A stretch of DNA of 20,499 nucleotides from a virus: positions 1 to 20,499 of the IMG/VR virus record IMGVR_UViG_3300044910_000335. The stretch is one strand, 5' to 3'. The translations under genes were made by a program, and so were the position numbers. Of this stretch, positions 2,566 to 20,499 are shown piece after piece (position 1 is the first letter of the stretch; every line of letters begins with the position of its first letter). The notes beneath the pieces were generated by a model that did not search any database, was not told the DNA's origin, and worked only from the letters and a program-made list of their open reading frames with translations.

Positions 2566-2850
2566 ATGAAATTAGTCCTTTGGATTCATCGCTCCAACGA
2601 TGAATCACAAGAGTGCGTTGCCGAATTTGTGGACTTCGTCAAATACGAAGAAATCCATAACGTTTCAATGTCCAAAGTAGAACAGGACATCAAAATTCGT
2701 GACTTGGCTTGGTTGGCGTGGCATTCAGAAAAACGTCGCAACAAGACCACGCTTGATTTCGACAAATGGCTTGAGACTGTTGCCAATATCAGTCTCGACG
2801 CTGGGGACGGTCAAATCGTCCCTTTGGAGAAGACTCAGCCCACTGGATGA
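2566..2850 (+). CDS. Tail assembly chaperone, short (G-type) form
   Basis: This 94-residue frame directly follows the major tail protein and has a strong Shine-Dalgarno (GGAGGT, 6-7 bases before the ATG). It is mostly helical. IRDLAWLAWHSEKRR (residues 44-58) and LDFDKWLETV (63-72) match the usual chaperone pattern of a DLAWLA helix followed by a WL-containing helix. Chaperones of the lambda gpG/gpGT type coat the tape measure protein while the tail tube assembles. The frame stops at 2848-2850 inside an ATGA overlap with a second frame. Seven codons before its stop lies a canonical -1 slippery heptamer, so this is probably the unshifted product of a pair. Confidence 0.8.
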   Translation: MKLVLWIHRSNDESQECVAEFVDFVKYEEIHNVSMSKVEQDIKIRDLAWLAWHSEKRRNKTTLDFDKWLETVANISLDAGDGQIVPLEKTQPTG

Positions 2851-2987
2851 TCGCCTATTTGGCGTGCGAGACGGGGATTGCCCCATCTCAACTGTTGGCT
2901 GAGTCACCACGAATGATTTGGACGATGCAAAAATATTTACACTGGCGTTTTATCAAACAGAATCCAAAGACGCCCTACACTCGCTGA
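2566..2987 (+). CDS. Tail assembly chaperone, frameshifted (GT-type) fusion
   Basis: The predicted -1 frameshift product is 140 residues: 87 from the first frame through Leu87, then 53 from the second frame starting at 2826. The joined sequence runs IVPL-GEDSAHWMIAYLACE and then TGIAPSQLLAESPRMIW. The second frame has its own ATG at 2847, but in the shifted frame it is open well upstream, back to 2775. Its content (a helix, then TGIAPSQLL, then a helix ending WTMQKYLHWR) is typical of the T half of siphovirus chaperones. Reading it as a free 46-residue protein from 2847 is the alternative. The fusion is inferred from sequence; the shift efficiency is unknown. Confidence 0.7.
2820..2826 (+). 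promoter_or_regulatory. -1 programmed ribosomal frameshift site CCCTTTG
   Basis: Read in the chaperone frame as GTC CCT TTG, the heptamer is C CCT TTG and fits the X XXY YYZ rule exactly. After a one-base backward slip the ribosome reads GGA GAA GAC and enters the T-type frame, which is open to 2987. Its placement 24 bases before the first stop is typical of tail chaperone frameshifts. Confidence 0.7.
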
Positions 2988-2988
2988 T

Positions 2989-3573
2989 ATGCCGAAGGTC
3001 TCTAGCGGTACTCGGATAGCTTCCGGACGCGCAGGAGATGTCGCCTTCGCAGCACCAGGTCTATTGGAATTCTTGCGTGACGCCAGTCAAGCGCAAGAAG
3101 GTTTCAACAAGCAGATGCGCAAGGCCGCCGAAGCCGTCGCACAAAAGGTAGTTGACGACGCAAAAAGAAACGCCGCAGCCCAACCGCCTCATGGAAAACC
3201 ACGTCCTGGATCATCGGGACGTTCTCAAGCACAGGTCGTTGTGAACGGATTGCGTGCCAGACGCGACCGCATCCCAACCATCAAACTCGATCACAACAAG
3301 CTCTACCCTTCTAAATCGCGGTCAAATACCAAACGCACACGAGGCAAAGCCTTTGGTCCTGGTCTGACTAGAAAAGTCACCATGGGCGACGTTTTTTTCG
3401 GTGCCGAATTTGGTGGTCAAGCGCGACCTCGCACTCAGCAATTCCTGCGACATCGCGGTAGGCAAGGATATTTCTTCTGGCAAGCAGTTAGAGACAACAA
3501 GTCCTACATCGTCAAAGAATATTCTGACGCCATCGAACGAGTATTGAAAGAACTTGCCAAGGGAGCCAAATAG
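2989..3573 (+). CDS. HK97 gp10-like tail completion protein
   Basis: 194 residues. The N-terminal third is helical (KQMRKAAEAVAQKVVDDAKR, about 41-60). The signature comes later: FFGAEFGG, then RTQQFLRHRGRQGYFFWQAV (about 149-168) and a C-terminal helix. The GxEFG...FxxHRGRQGYFFW pattern is typical of HK97 gp10-type minor tail or tail completion proteins. These are usually encoded between the connector and the terminator, so the position after the chaperones is unusual. A very basic middle section (KSRSNTKRTRGK) may contact nucleic acid or acidic partners. The ATG has no Shine-Dalgarno and is preceded by TACACT 7 bases upstream. Codon use is less GC-rich than upstream genes. Confidence 0.7.
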   Translation: MPKVSSGTRIASGRAGDVAFAAPGLLEFLRDASQAQEGFNKQMRKAAEAVAQKVVDDAKRNAAAQPPHGKPRPGSSGRSQAQVVVNGLRARRDRIPTIKLDHNKLYPSKSRSNTKRTRGKAFGPGLTRKVTMGDVFFGAEFGGQARPRTQQFLRHRGRQGYFFWQAVRDNKSYIVKEYSDAIERVLKELAKGAK

Positions 3574-3582
3574 GCGTAGTCT
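3554..3582 (+). promoter_or_regulatory. Sigma-70-type promoter inside the tail cluster
   Basis: TTGCCA (3554-3559), a spacer of exactly 17 bases, then TAGTCT (3577-3582). It overlaps the end of the gp10-like gene and points at the primase-like gene at 3609. Transcription would start near 3589. The following leader carries AAGGAG (3596-3601), 7 bases before the ATG. Confidence 0.55.
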
Positions 3583-3608
3583 GATTCCACAACATAAGGA
3601 GCCCGCCA

Positions 3609-4325
3609 ATGCCCCGCCAACTAATCAGTGCCGTCAAATTTCGTGACGTCAAATCCAATCAACCGCAGAAGTTCGCCATCTCCTGGAAGGGATTGAGCAG
3701 CCTGCTGCAAATCAGCGAGGCAAGAAGCGATAAGACGCAACGCGAACTCTGGTCCCCAGTCACCTATTTCAACGGCACGACCCGAGGCAACCGCAATGTC
3801 CAATACGTCACCTGTCTCGTCGTCGACATGGACGGCGAAGCATTCGACCATGCACGACTAGACGGCTTGGAATATCTCGCCTACACCACCTGGTCACACA
3901 CGCCAGAAGACCAGCACTGGCACCTCGTCCTGCCACTTGCCTACCCGGTTCCTGCTGATCGTTGGCACGAAGTCTGGACTCATTTGCATGAACGCATCAA
4001 CGTCGTCGGTGACCCGCAGACCAAAGATCCTGCACGCATCTTCTACCGACCGCAACACAAACCGCTGACGACTCCCGACATCAAGATTGGGTTTGGCGAA
4101 TTCATTGACCCCGACCTCGAAGCAATTTTCGTGCCTCGACCACGAATCGCACCAAACCCGAAATCTGCAGAAATTCGACAATCAACGAATTCTCATTGGC
4201 GACCCGAATCATGGTGGAATGAACCGCAGGATTTAAGTCGTTTCGCCGGTTTGACACAGTCACAAATAGCTGCCAAATTGCTTGATGAGTTTAGAGAACT
4301 GAGAAAGAGCTGGGTTTTTGACTGA
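3609..4325 (+). CDS. Primase-polymerase-like (AEP-type) protein in the tail cluster
   Basis: 238 residues. The core carries VTCLVVDMDGEAFD, with an Asp-x-Asp pair at 73-75 like the metal site of archaeo-eukaryotic primases. It is followed by YTTWSHTPEDQHWHLVLPLA (92-111), VPADRWHEVWTHL, and DPQTKDPARIFYRP (135-148). The DxDG...HTP...LVLPL...DPxRxFYxP order is found in primase or replication-initiation domains of phages and plasmids. No helicase or zinc domain is present, so it is a single-domain protein. It has a strong AAGGAG site, its own promoter, and sits between tail completion and tape measure genes. That makes it a likely moron or displaced replication gene. The fold assignment comes from motifs seen by eye. 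A catalytically inactive or different nucleotide-binding role is possible. Confidence 0.55.
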   Translation: MPRQLISAVKFRDVKSNQPQKFAISWKGLSSLLQISEARSDKTQRELWSPVTYFNGTTRGNRNVQYVTCLVVDMDGEAFDHARLDGLEYLAYTTWSHTPEDQHWHLVLPLAYPVPADRWHEVWTHLHERINVVGDPQTKDPARIFYRPQHKPLTTPDIKIGFGEFIDPDLEAIFVPRPRIAPNPKSAEIRQSTNSHWRPESWWNEPQDLSRFAGLTQSQIAAKLLDEFRELRKSWVFD

Positions 4326-4340: not shown

Positions 4341-7103
4341 ATGGCCGTTGAGCGTCAATTTATCGTCAAGTTGCTTGCCGACCCCAAGCAACTTATCGCC
4401 GATTTTCAATTAGTTCGAGGCGAAGCCGAGAAAACCTTTGGCATCTCCAATGCCAAACTCCAACAACTGCTACCTGGTTTCAAGGTATTGACGACTGCTG
4501 CGGCAGGCGTATTCGGAGGCTTGGTCGCTGGAGCAGGATTGGCGGTCAAAGCAGCAGCCGAAAACGAGGCGGCTCAACAACGACTTGCTCAAATTCTCCG
4601 AACGACTGGCAAAGCAACCTCCGATCAAATCAAGGGTCTCAATGAGCAGGCTGATGCACTTGAACGTGTTGGCGTTGTTTCGGGTGGCAATATCACTGCG
4701 TTGCAGGCTCAGCTTGCGACCTTTGATTTGCAGGCAGACACGATTGCCAAATTGACGCCGGCGATTGCCGACTATGTCGTCGCCGAAAAGGGTGCGACGG
4801 CCAGTGCCGAAGATTTCAAGTCAATGACCAACGGTCTTGCACAAGCATTGAATGGTCAATTCGGGGCGTTGACCCGGGTGGGCTTCGTGCTCGATGACAC
4901 AACAAAAGAACTGATTTCCAATGGAACTGAAGCCGAACGTGCCGCAGCTCTAGTCGAAGTCTTGAACTCCACTTATGGCGGTTTTAATGCTTCATTAAGG
5001 GAGACGACAGAAGGTCGAATGATTGCTCTTCGCAATTCGTTGGGCAAACTTCAAGAAGATATCGGCAAAATCCTCCTTCCGTTATTTGAGAATCTTGTGG
5101 GCGTGCTGGCGAAATTCGCATCGTTCGCTGCTCAAAACAGCACAATAATCGCGATATTGGCTGGAGGCGTCGGAGTTCTCTCCGTCGCCATTCTCGGTCT
5201 TGCCGGATATCTAAAAATCGCAGCTCTACAAAAGCGAGCCCTCAATGACGAATTCTTGAAAGGTCTGGTCACATTCAAGACTGCAGAAGGGCAGATGACC
5301 GCAACCGGAAAAGCAATCGTCGGCGTAGGAAAAGCCCTTGCGGTGGTTGCGGCCGCTGAAGGCACTTTTGCTGTCGTGAATGCAGTCGGAAATTCGGCTG
5401 CCAAAACTGCCGATCAAGTCAAAGCATTGACCGTTGCATTGAATGAGTTTGGTAAGGCTGGTGAAAAAGAACCCGAAAAAGTTTTGGAAGAATTTACAAG
5501 GCTCGCTCAAACAATCGGTCAAGAACTTCGATTGAAAGACATCTTCATTCAGTTCGGTCGAGAATTTCAATTGGTGGCCAACGGAATTTCTGTTGATATT
5601 GAATTAGCCGATGAGGCTTTCCGCAAATTTTTGGACAGCGATCCGCAGAAAGCCGCAGCCATTGTTCAAGCTCTTCAAGATCAACTTGCTGTCACTGATC
5701 CGACGAGTCGTGCTTATCAAGACTTGAAAGATGCAATTGATCGTTATCGTGCCGCCGTCAATTTGACTCTTGCAGCACAAGGCAAGTTAAATGACGAATT
5801 GAATAAGACATCTTGGTTTGAGAAGAATACAAAAGGTCTGGCAGACCTTAAGGTCGCACACAATAACGAGGCGCGAGCTCGCCTGGCTTCCGCGGATTCC
5901 ATTAAGAATTGGAATACCGAAGCAGAGAGATTGTTTAACAAGGCCGGTAGCGGTAAATCTGCGATTGAGAAACTTGCCGACGCCCAGAAAAAATTGCAGG
6001 ATGCCGTTCGTGGTGTTTTCAGCGCACAAATTGGGGAACGCAACGCAATCGAACGAGTCACCGACGCACAGAAACAATTGAAGAACGCCGACGAGGCAGT
6101 CACCAAGGCTAAGGAAAAACTCGCTCAGGCAATCCGCGGCTACGGTCGGGACAGCAAGGAAGGTGCGGCTGCGGTCAGAAAATTGACTGATGCGCAAAGA
6201 AATCTTACTCAAGCCAATCGGGGTGTTGCCGATGCGCAACAACGTGTTCTTGATGCCGAACGCAAGATTGCGGAAATCCGAGCCAAGGCAGCGGACCCCA
6301 CCGAACAGAACGAAGCTCAACTTGCGTTGGAGCAATCTCGACTCGGATTGGAGGAGGCGACGATTCGAGTTTCCGAAGCGGAAGAAGAATTGGCAAAGAC
6401 CTTGGCCGATCCAGAGGCTTCTGCCAAAGACAAACGGAAGGCGGAACTTTCGCTTGTTTCAGCGAAGTTGAGTTTGCGTGATGCGACGATGGATCTTGGT
6501 CAGGCCGAGAAGGAATTGGCTGCGATTCGTGCGGGTACGGAAAATGCTGTCGAATTGGCGGAAGCTGAACGGGAATTGACCGACGCAAAGATTTCCGTCG
6601 AGGACGCTATTTACAATCAGAAAAAAGCTCAAGAGGAATTGAATGCCGAACAAGAGAATTACCGCAAGGTCGTCGAGGGTATTCGAGAATCCGACAAGGA
6701 ATATGTCGAATTGTCGAAAGACATTGTGGATGCCGAAGAGAATCAGGCTTCTGCGGCTCGTGGATTGCGCGATGCCAGAGAACAGGCCGCTTCAGCAACC
6801 GATTCGCTTCGCAAAGCAGAAGAGGCGTTACGAGAAAGTCGAAAAGAGGCTCGTGGTGCTGGAGTTAATGTTAAAAATGTTGTTGCCGGTGTTAAGTCTC
6901 CGATGGATTTCGGCAAAATTCCGGAACCGACTGCAAACGGAAACGGTAATCAGAATGGCGGCAACAACGGTGCCACTGTAATCATGAATATCACGAACGG
7001 CATTGGTGGCAATGCCTACCAGGTCGGCAAGGAACTCATTGAGATACTTGACCAGTACACGTCGGTGGCTGGTCCGCTTGACACGTTGATGCGCGTGGCC
7101 TGA
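4341..7103 (+). CDS. Tape measure protein
   Basis: At 920 residues this is the longest protein in the window. It has hydrophobic segments at about 48-70 (GVFGGLVAGAGLAVKAA), 266-292 and 323-350. The region SMTNGLAQALNGQFGALTRV (161-180) with ATAERAAALVEV-like text after it is typical of siphovirus tape measures. From about 530 to 840 the chain is one long series of coiled-coil heptads rich in Ala, Glu, Lys and the recurring words DAQ and DAE. It ends in an Asn/Gly-rich hinge and a short C-terminal domain. The protein sets tail length; at the usual 0.15 nm per residue the tail would be near 140 nm. Base composition is clearly lower in G+C than in the genes after 7105. The start lacks a ribosome binding site. 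Confidence 0.9.
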   Translation: MAVERQFIVKLLADPKQLIADFQLVRGEAEKTFGISNAKLQQLLPGFKVLTTAAAGVFGGLVAGAGLAVKAAAENEAAQQRLAQILRTTGKATSDQIKGLNEQADALERVGVVSGGNITALQAQLATFDLQADTIAKLTPAIADYVVAEKGATASAEDFKSMTNGLAQALNGQFGALTRVGFVLDDTTKELISNGTEAERAAALVEVLNSTYGGFNASLRETTEGRMIALRNSLGKLQEDIGKILLPLFENLVGVLAKFASFAAQNSTIIAILAGGVGVLSVAILGLAGYLKIAALQKRALNDEFLKGLVTFKTAEGQMTATGKAIVGVGKALAVVAAAEGTFAVVNAVGNSAAKTADQVKALTVALNEFGKAGEKEPEKVLEEFTRLAQTIGQELRLKDIFIQFGREFQLVANGISVDIELADEAFRKFLDSDPQKAAAIVQALQDQLAVTDPTSRAYQDLKDAIDRYRAAVNLTLAAQGKLNDELNKTSWFEKNTKGLADLKVAHNNEARARLASADSIKNWNTEAERLFNKAGSGKSAIEKLADAQKKLQDAVRGVFSAQIGERNAIERVTDAQKQLKNADEAVTKAKEKLAQAIRGYGRDSKEGAAAVRKLTDAQRNLTQANRGVADAQQRVLDAERKIAEIRAKAADPTEQNEAQLALEQSRLGLEEATIRVSEAEEELAKTLADPEASAKDKRKAELSLVSAKLSLRDATMDLGQAEKELAAIRAGTENAVELAEAERELTDAKISVEDAIYNQKKAQEELNAEQENYRKVVEGIRESDKEYVELSKDIVDAEENQASAARGLRDAREQAASATDSLRKAEEALRESRKEARGAGVNVKNVVAGVKSPMDFGKIPEPTANGNGNQNGGNNGATVIMNITNGIGGNAYQVGKELIEILDQYTSVAGPLDTLMRVA

Positions 7104-17794: not shown

Positions 17795-17901
17795 CGTGGC
17801 GTTGCCCGCGATGTGAAAATCAAATAACTCTTCACATCACACCGACCGTCGCCCCGCAATGCACCCGGCATTCACCGACACAACCAATGGAGAAACAATG
17901 A
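17791..17901 (+). CDS. Zinc-ribbon peptide
   Basis: 36 residues starting with GTG in a GTGA overlap. MTWRCPRCENQITLHITPTV continues APQCTRHSP and ends PMEKQ. A Cys5-x-x-Cys8 knuckle is followed by Cys24 and His27, enough for one zinc site. Short phage peptides with a W.CP.C...L.....PP.C..H....ME ending are common in actinophages, which is why I accept such a small frame. The function is unknown; these are usually noted only as zinc-binding. The stop overlaps the next gene in ATGA. Confidence 0.65.
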   Translation: MTWRCPRCENQITLHITPTVAPQCTRHSPTQPMEKQ

Positions 17902-18122
17902 ACCAAGCAAACCTCCGCTACGCAGTAGGACCGCTCATCGCCCCATACGTCAACCTCACCGCACGACAACTCGGAGACATCTTCGGCGTCAACCGCGCCA
18001 CCATCGTCCGGTGGCGCAACCCGAAAGCCACCTTCAACCAGTGGGACGCCGACCGCTACGCAATCCAAATCGGCAAACACCCAGGCGAAATCTGGCCCGA
18101 CTGGTTCGACATCGACTGCTAA
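17898..18122 (+). CDS. Helix-turn-helix protein
   Basis: 74 residues from the ATG at 17898, with GGAGAAA just upstream; an earlier in-frame ATG lies in the previous gene. LTARQLGDIFGVNRATIVRW (20-39) is a good helix-turn-helix, with the recognition helix starting at about 33. The C-terminal part (WDADRYAIQIGKHPGEIWPD) is a helix plus turn as in small MerR/excisionase-like or Cro-like binders. Located directly before the primase-helicase, it could regulate the replication operon or bind the origin, but no target site is identifiable. Confidence 0.65.
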   Translation: MNQANLRYAVGPLIAPYVNLTARQLGDIFGVNRATIVRWRNPKATFNQWDADRYAIQIGKHPGEIWPDWFDIDC

Positions 18123-18155: not shown

Positions 18156-19994
18156 ATGGAAGTGCTGACCGCCGCACTCGCCTACGCATCAAAAGGATTA
18201 CGCGTCATACCAATCGCCCCAGGCGAAAAGTATCCGTCAGGCATCGAATCGTGGCAAACGAAAGCCACCACCGACCCCGACACCATCACCACATGGTTCA
18301 CCAAGACATACAAAGGCTGGGGCGTCGGCATCGCCACAGGCAAGATCACCAACAGCTACCTGTTCGTCCTCGACATCGACGACCGCGAACAACATCGAGG
18401 CTCAGACACACTCGCCGACCTTGAAGCCGAACACGGCGAACTACCACCCACCGTCACCGTCCATACCCCATCCGGTGGCAGGCATCTCTACTTCCGCACC
18501 AGCATCAACGTGCGCAACGACGCAGGCAAACGCCTCGGGCCGGGCTTAGACATCCGAGGCGAGGGCGGACAAGTCCTCGCACCACCAACGCTGCACCCGA
18601 ACGGCAAGCCCTACATCGAAGACGTCGAACACGGCTTCAACAACCCACCCGCATTCGCACCCGACTGGCTCATCCAACGCCTCACCGTAGAACCAAAAAT
18701 CGACCGCCACCAGCCACACGACCTCGACGGACTCCGCGACGACCCCAACCTCCCCAGCACCCGCTACAACTCCACCAGCGACTGGCACAGCCTCCTCACC
18801 GCCGACGGATGGAAACACGCCTACCAACACAACGGCACCGACTACTACATCCGCCCAGGCAAAGACCGAGGCATCTCAGCATCCGTCAACCACAACGGCA
18901 ACGATGCCCTCATCGTCTTCAGCACCAACGCACCCATCCCACCCGGCGGCTACACCCGCTTCGGCTACTACGCCCAAACCCGACACGGAGGCGACTGGAA
19001 AAAAGCCAGCGCCGCCTACCTCGGCACCAACCCCACACCCACCACCACAACGACTCATGAGTTGCTCGAGCAGCTCATCAACTGGCAAGACTTCTGGAAC
19101 CAAGACCACAAATCAGAAGACTGGATCGCCTACCCACTCATCGCACGCGGAAGACAAACAGCACTCTTCGCCGTCAGCAAAGAAGGCAAATCATACATCG
19201 CACTCGCCTGCACCGCAGCCCTCGCCACAGGCAAACCCATCTTCGGACGCCCAGCCCAACCACCCGTCCACGTCCTCTACCTCGACTACGAAATGACCGC
19301 ATCAGACCTGATGGAACGATTGGAGACCCTCGGCTACACCAACGAAGACGACCTCACCCACCTGCACTACGCCCTCATCCCGAGCCTGCCACCACTCAAC
19401 ACCTACGAAGGTGCAGCAGAAGTCATGAAACTCGTAGAACTTACAGGTGCCCAAGTCGTCGTCATCGACACCACCGGACGAGCCGTAGAAGGCGAAGAGA
19501 ACTCCGCAGACACCTACCGCGAGTTCGCCAGGACAACCGGCCTCAGCCTCAAAGCAGCAGGCGTCGCCCTCCTGCGTACCGATCACGCAGGCAAAGACAA
19601 AGGCAAAACCCAAGGCCAACGAGGCTCATCAGCCAAAAACGACGACGTCGACATCGTCTACCACCTCCAACGCGACGGCCACACAATGAAACTCACCCGC
19701 ATCTTCTCCCGCATCGGCTGGGCACCAACCGAAGTCGAACTCGTCGAGGAGCAGCTCGAGGACGACCACAAACCCATCAGGCTCAAAGAAGCCATGGAAA
19801 CCTTCACCGAAGAGACCTACGACCTCGCACGCCGCCTCATGATCGCACTCGGCCTCAAACCCGGCGACAAGCAACAGAACAGCCAAGCCTTCCGACGCCA
19901 AGCCCGCCAAGCAGGCATCAAAGCTCGCAACGACCAATGGGGTCCAGCCCTCCGAGCCATCGCCCAAAACCGCCTAAGAGACCCACTCGCCTAA
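18156..19994 (+). CDS. Bifunctional primase-polymerase / RecA-like helicase
   Basis: 612 residues with AAGGAGA before the ATG. The N-terminal prim-pol domain (about 1-180) has LFVLDIDDRE (69-78, Asp73-x-Asp75), TVHTPSGGRHLYFR (101-114, the SGGxH motif) and GLDIRGEGGQVLAPP (130-144). A linker domain runs to about 300. The C-terminal RecA-like ATPase has Walker A as AVSKEGKS (339-346), with Ala in place of the first Gly, VHVLYLDYEM (371-380), Walker B VVVIDTTGR (434-442) and a DHAGKDKGKT loop. This is the replicative primase-helicase type of small actinophages, which makes primers and unwinds DNA. No DNA polymerase is seen in the window, so synthesis may depend on the host or on genes outside it. 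Confidence 0.85.
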   Translation: MEVLTAALAYASKGLRVIPIAPGEKYPSGIESWQTKATTDPDTITTWFTKTYKGWGVGIATGKITNSYLFVLDIDDREQHRGSDTLADLEAEHGELPPTVTVHTPSGGRHLYFRTSINVRNDAGKRLGPGLDIRGEGGQVLAPPTLHPNGKPYIEDVEHGFNNPPAFAPDWLIQRLTVEPKIDRHQPHDLDGLRDDPNLPSTRYNSTSDWHSLLTADGWKHAYQHNGTDYYIRPGKDRGISASVNHNGNDALIVFSTNAPIPPGGYTRFGYYAQTRHGGDWKKASAAYLGTNPTPTTTTTHELLEQLINWQDFWNQDHKSEDWIAYPLIARGRQTALFAVSKEGKSYIALACTAALATGKPIFGRPAQPPVHVLYLDYEMTASDLMERLETLGYTNEDDLTHLHYALIPSLPPLNTYEGAAEVMKLVELTGAQVVVIDTTGRAVEGEENSADTYREFARTTGLSLKAAGVALLRTDHAGKDKGKTQGQRGSSAKNDDVDIVYHLQRDGHTMKLTRIFSRIGWAPTEVELVEEQLEDDHKPIRLKEAMETFTEETYDLARRLMIALGLKPGDKQQNSQAFRRQARQAGIKARNDQWGPALRAIAQNRLRDPLA

Positions 19995-20016
19995 CCCCAA
20001 AAACGGGGACACGCTC

Positions 20017-20089
20017 ACGGGACAAGAAACTGAAACCCTTGCCAGACAAAGGGACCTGGGTGTGTTACGTAGTAACACCCAGTTCCCGT
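20017..20089 (+). other. Possible three-way-junction element in the 19995-20137 gap
   Basis: ACGGGA (20017-20022) can pair with TCCCGT (20084-20089). Inside lie a 5-base hairpin, CCCTT/AAGGG (20036-20040 and 20049-20053), and a long hairpin, CTGGGT...ACCCAG (20056-20082), whose inner stem is GTTAC/GTAAC around GTA. Alternatively GGGA/TCCC extends the long hairpin. The rest of the 143-base gap shows only a small CCCC/GGGG hairpin just after the helicase stop. The element could be a replication origin, a terminator or a small RNA; it does not fit a tRNA. Confidence 0.4.
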
Positions 20090-20137
20090 CTCACGATTCA
20101 GGCGGTCCCCAGACCACCTCAGCCCTAACCTCAATCC

Positions 20138-20440
20138 ATGCCCATTCGCCGCCCATGCATCGAGTGTCGGCGACTCACCACCTCCATCACCCGCTGCGAC
20201 CTCTGCGCCGGTAAGCGAGAGGCAATCAGGAACGCCAGCCGACCGCACTACAAAGGCGACTACCCCGAGCGCGCTCGACTCGTGAGGGAGACCGCGACCC
20301 ACTGCCACATCTGCGGCCAAGGCGCACGAGACGGCGACCCTTGGACGGCAGATCATGTCTTCGGTCCCGAGTCCGACGTGCTCGCCGCCGCTCATCGCAG
20401 CTGCAACTCGAGCCGCGGCGCACGCGAGCAGCGCGGCTGA
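20138..20440 (+). CDS. HNH endonuclease
   Basis: 100 residues. Cys7, Cys10, Cys20 and Cys23 form one zinc-like site. The HNH core follows: ATHCHICGQG (53-62, Cys56 and Cys59), DPWTADHVFG (67-76, Asp72-His73) and LAAAHRSCNSSRG (82-94, His86, Cys89, Asn90). This is the common small actinophage HNH endonuclease encoded just before the terminase, which is required for DNA packaging in several siphoviruses. TAACCT lies 6 bases before the ATG and there is no Shine-Dalgarno, so the start may be leaderless. The gene is followed by a strong hairpin and then the window end. Confidence 0.85.
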   Translation: MPIRRPCIECRRLTTSITRCDLCAGKREAIRNASRPHYKGDYPERARLVRETATHCHICGQGARDGDPWTADHVFGPESDVLAAAHRSCNSSRGAREQRG

Positions 20441-20469
20441 CCCCGCCCCGGCCTCGACCGGGGTGGGTC
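20439..20469 (+). terminator. Strong hairpin after the HNH gene
   Basis: The arms 20439-20451 and 20458-20469 pair over 12 positions, with one bulged C and one G-U pair, around the loop CCTCGA. The left arm begins in the HNH stop codon. Only a weak AAAA follows instead of a U tract, so it may be a terminator, a processing site or part of the packaging region. Confidence 0.55.
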
Positions 20470-20494
20470 AAAATCTGCGCGAGGGAAGCCGAAA

Positions 20495-20499
20495 ATGAC
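20495..20499 (+). CDS. Start of the next gene (cut by window edge), perhaps terminase
   Basis: ATG at 20495 with GAGGGAAG at suitable spacing upstream. Only five bases are present. By the usual gene order after an HNH endonuclease, terminase small subunit is the expected product, but the sequence does not show it. Confidence 0.3.

Follow-up and report, generated by a model that had tools for sequence, protein, structure and literature searches.

The window analysed here, a stretch of 20,499 nucleotides from a 20.5-kb virus record, carries 143 bp (positions 19995-20137) that fill the space between the gene of a fused prim-pol/AAA_25 helicase, whose stop codon directly precedes them, and a small HNH-like gene. 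What is this element for? The original prediction, made from the letters alone, described it as a three-way junction and offered an origin of replication, a terminator or an RNA gene as its function. From comparison with relatives, in which the element also lies 3' of the helicase gene, we consider it quite probable that these 143 bp are an iteron-plus-stem-loop replication origin of the phage. The features to which we refer are:

18156-19994, + strand: prim-pol/AAA_25 helicase gene (Pfam PF09250, E 1.3e-42; PF13481, E 3.3e-21), the proposed initiator
19773-19991, + strand: helicase C-terminal domain (about residues 540-612), three helices in an AlphaFold2 model (pLDDT 84), the proposed reader of the repeats
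20005-20011, + strand: repeat 1, GGGGACA, with a GGGACA block invariant in 18 aligned relatives
20019-20024, + strand: repeat 2, GGGACA, likewise an invariant block in the 18 aligned relatives
20033-20041, + strand: AAACCCTTG box upstream of the hairpin, an AACC-like motif
20044-20091, + strand: bulged stem-loop with compensated changes, of a plan shared with other classes, with 5'-arm bulges in 58 of 61 elements
20105-20109, - strand: GTCCC to the right of the hairpin, possibly a copy of the repeat in inverted orientation; in 9 of 18 rows (window to L010) and absent from the other 9
20138-20440: small HNH-like gene (phrog_338, E 3e-4; no Pfam match)

The genes flanking the element all have the same reading direction. 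Directly before the helicase gene lies a small HTH-like gene (17859-18122) that matches phrog_7950, a transcriptional repressor, weakly (E 4.5e-4). A DNA similarity search against isolated phages gave no match, nor did a sequence search of the helicase against solved structures (E 0.01). With the helicase as query, 18 stretches of bacterial genomes were matched, none of them encoding a relative. We found no description of this element in the literature among the matches listed.

One bulged hairpin in the window

The letters on which the three-way junction was built are all in place: ACGGGA at 20017-20022 and TCCCGT at 20084-20089 for an outer stem, CCCTT from 20036 and AAGGG from 20049 for an inner one, a hairpin with the inner palindrome GTTACGTAGTAAC at 20064-20076, and AACTG and CAGTT for an alternative pairing. 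We aligned 18 relatives of the window's class (class A; 17 distinct rows, alignment A1). In the outer stem two positions fail in 9 of 17 rows, in the inner stem three positions fail in 7, 1 and 5 of 17 rows, and neither stem has a single pair changed on both sides. Because these breaks go uncompensated, the three-way junction is not supported; the complementarity of both stems is made of copies of the GGGAC repeat. The hairpin is the only one of the three proposed stems that behaves as a paired structure: across the 17 distinct rows, 5 of its 11 pairs show changes in both partners, and 95% of cells are paired. The covariation that the original prediction had named as a check is thus found in the hairpin and missing from the outer and inner stems. 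Of the two CTCACG copies noted at the edges, both are present (20014 and 20090), but the right-hand one is not kept in relatives, being replaced by CTCCAG in L004 and L011.

The hairpin is also longer than first described. RNAalifold adds a basal stem, AGAC/GTCT (20044-20047/20088-20091), in which two pairs have changed on both sides and one row is broken at one pair, and we therefore place the hairpin at 20044-20091. From the base upwards it consists of AGAC/GTCT, an AAA bulge in the 5' arm (20048-20050, 3 nt), GGGA/TCCC, a C/T mismatch, CTGGGT/ACCCAG, a GT bulge, again in the 5' arm (20062-20063, 2 nt), GTTAC/GTAAC and the loop GTA (20069-20071). Across the 18-row alignment, its 11 pairs comprise 189 Watson-Crick, 0 G-T and 9 other combinations; outside these 11 pairs, G-T is present in the extended stems, with 33 of 613 pairs in one count and 10 at the base in another.

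Folded as RNA, the 143 nt reach a z score of -2.6, with 2 of 200 shuffles as good. As DNA, 20040-20095 gives -2.7 for the + strand and -3.7 for the - strand, so that folding of the bottom strand is no weaker than that of the top one, which counts against the origin reading. The element contains this one conserved hairpin, not the two stem-loops of RSF1010 oriV, and no AT-rich stretch could be clearly seen in it by eye.

Two of the functions originally offered were dropped. An intrinsic terminator would need a hairpin followed by a run of T, and the + strand of 19500-20499 has no such site; three terminator-like sites lie in this interval, all on the - strand and one inside the element (20052-20036), compared with 2.0 +/- 1.6 in shuffled sequences. 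As to an RNA gene, the window has no match to an Rfam family at the gathering score (0 matches) and no tRNA or tmRNA. Of the three options the origin is the best supported.

The same plan in unrelated letters

A viral search with the helicase provided the best 80 of 109 relatives, and further searches added distant ones; the resulting 184 loci reduce to 105 distinct regions downstream of the helicase core. We omitted L072 from all counts. In this locus the helicase gene, viewed by eye, seems to reverse into its own reverse complement beyond about position 3590, probably an assembly artefact.

When 52 distinct elements were folded as DNA, most shared one order with letters unrelated across sub-groups: a basal stem of 3-5 bp, a 5' bulge, a stem containing a repeat, a short 5' bulge, an apical palindrome and a loop of 3-5 nt. 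In some, for example L034, L035, L038 and L080, the minimum-energy fold deviates from this plan or leaves part of it unpaired. A perfect apical palindrome of at least 7 bp is present in all 91 scored loci, compared with 54 of 1539 control windows; the 91 are those of the 105 regions that remain when L072, L200, L202 and regions shorter than 480 nt are set aside. The regions without such a palindrome are the truncated contigs L041, L043, L049 and L060, plus L072 and L200. These, together with L202, are omitted from the folding, bulge-side and AACC-like-motif counts.

The bulges have a strand polarity. In an outward walk that treats both arms alike, the 5' arm has an excess of unpaired bases in 58 of 61 distinct elements and the 3' arm in none, 3 elements not being extendable; since the walk starts from loci that bear a palindrome, it is uninformative on palindrome frequency. 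The loops show a preference as well. Loops of the form G...A closed by C-G, a kind known from very stable DNA minihairpins, occur in 13 of 21 distinct apical palindromes and 1 of 77 control palindromes, and other loops (ATT, ATA, TATA) are also present. The AACC-like motif recurs at the same distance from the hairpin in all 17 class A elements, in 28 of 30 of class B and in 5 of 22 of class C. In the distant relative L202, the helicase gene is followed by a perfect hairpin of 12 bp, GAAGATTATTGT/ACAATAATCTTC, with which we recognised neither repeats nor bulges. The 1.1 kb around the end of the prim-pol gene of Arthrobacter phage Constance contain no perfect hairpin that reaches 7 bp.

A blind search with the apical motif GTGTGTNACGNAGTNACAC led back to the same gene. 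The motif matched 45 viral contigs, and in 41 of them the variable bases are complementary, that is, palindromic. A relative of the helicase lies within 700 nt upstream of 39 of these 41 matches. As for the other two, the contig of L225 offers only 43 nt upstream, and the match in L255 lies right after another AAA_25 helicase, without a prim-pol match and with GGGAAGGGT repeats. The link of the hairpin to an AAA_25 helicase gene is thus constant. No helicase relative was found near the 4 non-complementary matches. In bacterial genomes a narrower apical motif matched 3 contigs, of which one, from a Spirochaetes MAG (L258), is palindromic and apparently unrelated; by eye, no helicase was seen among its ORFs of at least 150 aa. 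In L255, the AAA_25 helicase gene with its ACCCTTCCC repeats at the 3' end and the same GTGTGTTACGTAGTAACAC hairpin right behind lies in the stretch 5464-6934, and an integrase-like ORF can be seen by eye at 2789-4054.

Among isolates, Streptomyces phage mu1/6 offers a partial likeness. Of the 14 ACCTGCCC sites in its genome, 8 fall in the 3' end of an AAA_25 helicase gene (gp21 region), which also holds a long hairpin with a long stem and a 10-nt loop, without the two bulges. What mu1/6 shares with our phages is repeats plus a hairpin at the 3' end of an AAA_25 helicase gene. However, its helicase has a DnaB-type N-terminus where ours has prim-pol, and mu1/6 enters the comparison as a sequence with no described origin.

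Repeats, helicase C-terminus and reading frame

Short repeats accompany the hairpin. The window itself has only two clear GGGACA copies at the element, out of 5 in 20.5 kb, and a repeat finder run on 19985-20140 reported no iteron family; both results weigh against the origin reading. Other loci are richer: some class B regions have 8 to 11 copies of GGGAACCA, and C1 has 6 to 9 copies of GGCGT(G/A)A. The repeat word differs by class (GGGGACA, GGGAACCAC, CGGAACCA, GGGTACC, GAACCG, GGCGTGA, CAAGCA), loci found later have CAGACAC or CAGACC, and at the outgroup loci L200 and L202 the repeats are absent, which also speaks against that reading. L008 and L009 carry about 100 extra nt with GGGGTGGGGTACC and CCCCACCCC repeats between the helicase stop and the GGGGACA element. 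One 31.9-kb record (G008, which holds L035) has three exact TTATCCACA DnaA-box-like sites at +64, +319 and +330 from the end of the helicase match and none away from the element; no exact TTATCCACA box was found in the other nine of the 10 records scanned.

The repeat type changes together with the C-terminus of the helicase. We compared the two in 86 of the 91 proteins, using repeat classes that had been defined after inspection of the data. None of the 246 protein pairs with C-termini more than 75% identical differ in repeat type. Where the cores are 90-95% identical, mean C-terminus identity is 85% in the 91 pairs that share a repeat and 56% in the 62 pairs that do not, and 0 of 2000 within-cluster permutations reached the observed link. 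Repeat and C-terminal domain can switch while the rest of the protein stays about 90% identical or more, as in L103 compared with L081, and in L080 compared with L056 or L074, L080 being assigned to the GGGACA class on two copies only. Three points speak against the link: the GGCGTGA repeat is common to two C-terminal types that are only about 17% identical (38 of 112 pairs with close cores and low C-terminus identity have the same repeat type), the 55-65% core bin shows no greater similarity between pairs of one type (17% vs 24%), and the classes were defined after inspection.

In two AlphaFold2 models the C-terminal domain forms three helices (pLDDT 84, for the window, and 69). Its structural matches are weak, the best reaching Z 3.7, with many HTH or homeodomain chains among them; the P4 alpha domain is not in these match lists, from which no exclusion follows. 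Foldseek found nothing significant with the C-terminal model. Taken from sequence comparison, our suggestion is that the C-terminal domain reads the repeats.

The position of the element relative to the helicase reading frame also depends on the class. Of 39 distinct class B elements, 38 are traversed by the frame (the exception is L028), while it stops ahead of the element in 19 of 20 cases in class A (all but L080) and in all 28 in class C. Class B helicases end on an aromatic residue that follows mostly acidic or polar ones, e.g., ELW, DIW or NNY. An acidic/polar tail with an aromatic end resembles the tip at the C-terminus of SSB proteins. Such an aromatic end (W, F or Y) is found in nearly all helicases of classes B and C; those of the window's class lack it and end in RDPLA, RDPLE, RDPLN or similar residues.

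A candidate origin and its alternatives

Cumulative skew, another check proposed with the original prediction, proved ambiguous. A switch in composition exists: in all 13 genomes that bear the element, the largest top-strand switch towards G/T lies 0.45-1.0 kb after the end of the helicase match, whereas two outgroups that lack the element have it at a distance of 2.6 and 3.8 kb. On a finer scale, however, the likely genome end is where the sign changes, 0.3-0.6 kb to the right of the loop, and mu1/6 has no composition flip at its helicase. For these two reasons we dropped the switch as proof of an origin position and give skew little weight.

That genome end was recognised from the contigs themselves. 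By eye, 19 of the 33 contig ends inspected break off at the equivalent base, immediately behind the HNH gene, the window (20499) and L002 at the same one. Sharing this end are the window, L002, L007, L010, L012, L015, L018, L023, L030, L031, L035, L057, L058, L062, L066, L070, L075, L109 and L112. The shared ends mostly read ...GAC or ...TAC, and contigs that continue, such as L003, read ...GAC CCATGCC. Contigs stopping at an equivalent base suggest a physical genome end of the cos type, about 0.4 kb right of the element. Between the HNH stop and the inferred end, the window has a G+C-rich inverted repeat, CCCCGCCCCGG...CCGGGGTGGG (20441-20467), which is possibly part of a packaging site; similar inverted repeats with different letters are visible near the ends of many relatives.

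How might the element act? The C-terminal domain of the helicase would bind the short repeats just 3' of its own gene or, in class B, inside the 3' end of the gene. This binding would load the helicase and open the DNA, and the exposed top strand could then fold in the cell into the bulged hairpin, which may serve as a structured site for assembly or priming. It is tempting to go further and speculate that the start signal is a single-stranded DNA hairpin read by shape (bulges that always fall on one strand, in many cases with a C-(G..A)-G loop) and not by letters, combined with fast-swapping iterons and cognate C-terminal domains, and placed in many phages inside the coding sequence of the initiator helicase. 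We hold this fuller version only tentatively and lean slightly against it.

One alternative is that the helicase mRNA carries a regulatory RNA element or an operator here: the transcript would fold, or the helicase or the HTH-like protein of 17859-18122 would bind, to control replication or late genes. The flanking genes are read one way, the folded strand is the coding strand, compensated pairs suit RNA as well as DNA, and a weak repressor match (E 4.5e-4) was found for the gene that precedes the helicase. We nevertheless regard this explanation as unlikely, given that Rfam yields no match, that in 38 of 39 class B elements translation of the frame continues through the structure, that repeats and C-terminal domain change jointly, and that the 11 hairpin pairs have no G-T in 18 rows although G-T occurs elsewhere in extended stems.

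The same joint change of repeat type and helicase C-terminus argues against a packaging site resembling cosB, with terminase binding the repeats and hairpin near the genome end. In mu1/6, moreover, the repeats and hairpin (14.1-14.3 kb) lie more than 4 kb from the terminase large subunit gene (18.9 kb). A packaging role, which would fit the likely physical end about 0.4 kb to the right, the composition switch there and the adjoining HNH gene, of a kind often found beside terminase genes, therefore seems very unlikely to us. Strand-specific bulges are typical of recombination sites that act as folded single-stranded DNA, such as integron attC, and a recombination or resolution site of this sort would fit the polarity we see. 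The constant association with the helicase gene and with the C-terminal domain that it encodes speaks against it, no recombinase was found among the window proteins searched against families, and we judge it highly improbable.

An origin of this kind has known counterparts. In the Sulfolobus plasmid pRN1, a stem-loop of about 100 nt 3' of orf904, which encodes a prim-pol helicase, is a putative origin; it is required for replication, the authors stating that direct proof of initiation there is lacking, and a similar stem-loop has been proposed in Bordetella phage BIP-1 (PMC4234260). As in our phages, the stem-loop lies right after the prim-pol helicase gene and its structure is kept over changing letters. 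However, pRN1 as described there lacks iterons and has an SF3 helicase and a large loop, whereas our elements combine iterons, an AAA_25 (PF13481) helicase, small loops and two bulges in the 5' arm.

SaPI and SCCmec elements resemble ours in having short direct repeats directly behind the gene of an initiator helicase, which on our side form clear arrays in many relatives. Repeats 3' of the helicase gene mark origins in SaPI, and in SCCmec (Cch2) it is the C-terminus of the helicase, encoded immediately upstream, that binds them (PMC7581432), a reading by the C-terminus that is demonstrated there and inferred here. Those helicases are of other types, and deletion of the inverted repeats in SCCmec had no effect on binding (PMC7581432). 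In our elements, by comparison, the bulged hairpin is the best-kept part, and the putative class B origin lies inside the gene.

RSF1010 oriV also combines iterons with a helicase, and its stem-loops are recognised by a primase when they become single-stranded; the multifunctional helicase-primase alpha of phage P4 binds origin repeats through a winged-helix domain (PMC4234260). RSF1010 divides the work among three separate proteins and uses the ssiA/ssiB stem-loops, whereas here we see one fused protein and one hairpin; the P4 primase is of the Toprim type, whereas ours is prim-pol. To our knowledge, the P4 origin has no matching hairpin. The ori of phage lambda lies inside gene O, so that its iterons are part of the gene for the protein that binds them, as we propose for class B; lambda O is a separate initiator and has neither a helicase nor a primase domain. 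While this kind of origin is already known, what is new here is the combination of iterons and a hairpin with strand-specific bulges, together with the AAA_25 helicase and, in some classes, the location inside the gene.

If the element is an origin, it gives a recognisable signature for environmental phages known mainly from metagenomes. The classes would then form a natural series of swapped initiator and repeat pairs from which a recognition code could be read, and the hairpin would be a testable structure-coded DNA signal that in some phages lies within a protein-coding gene.
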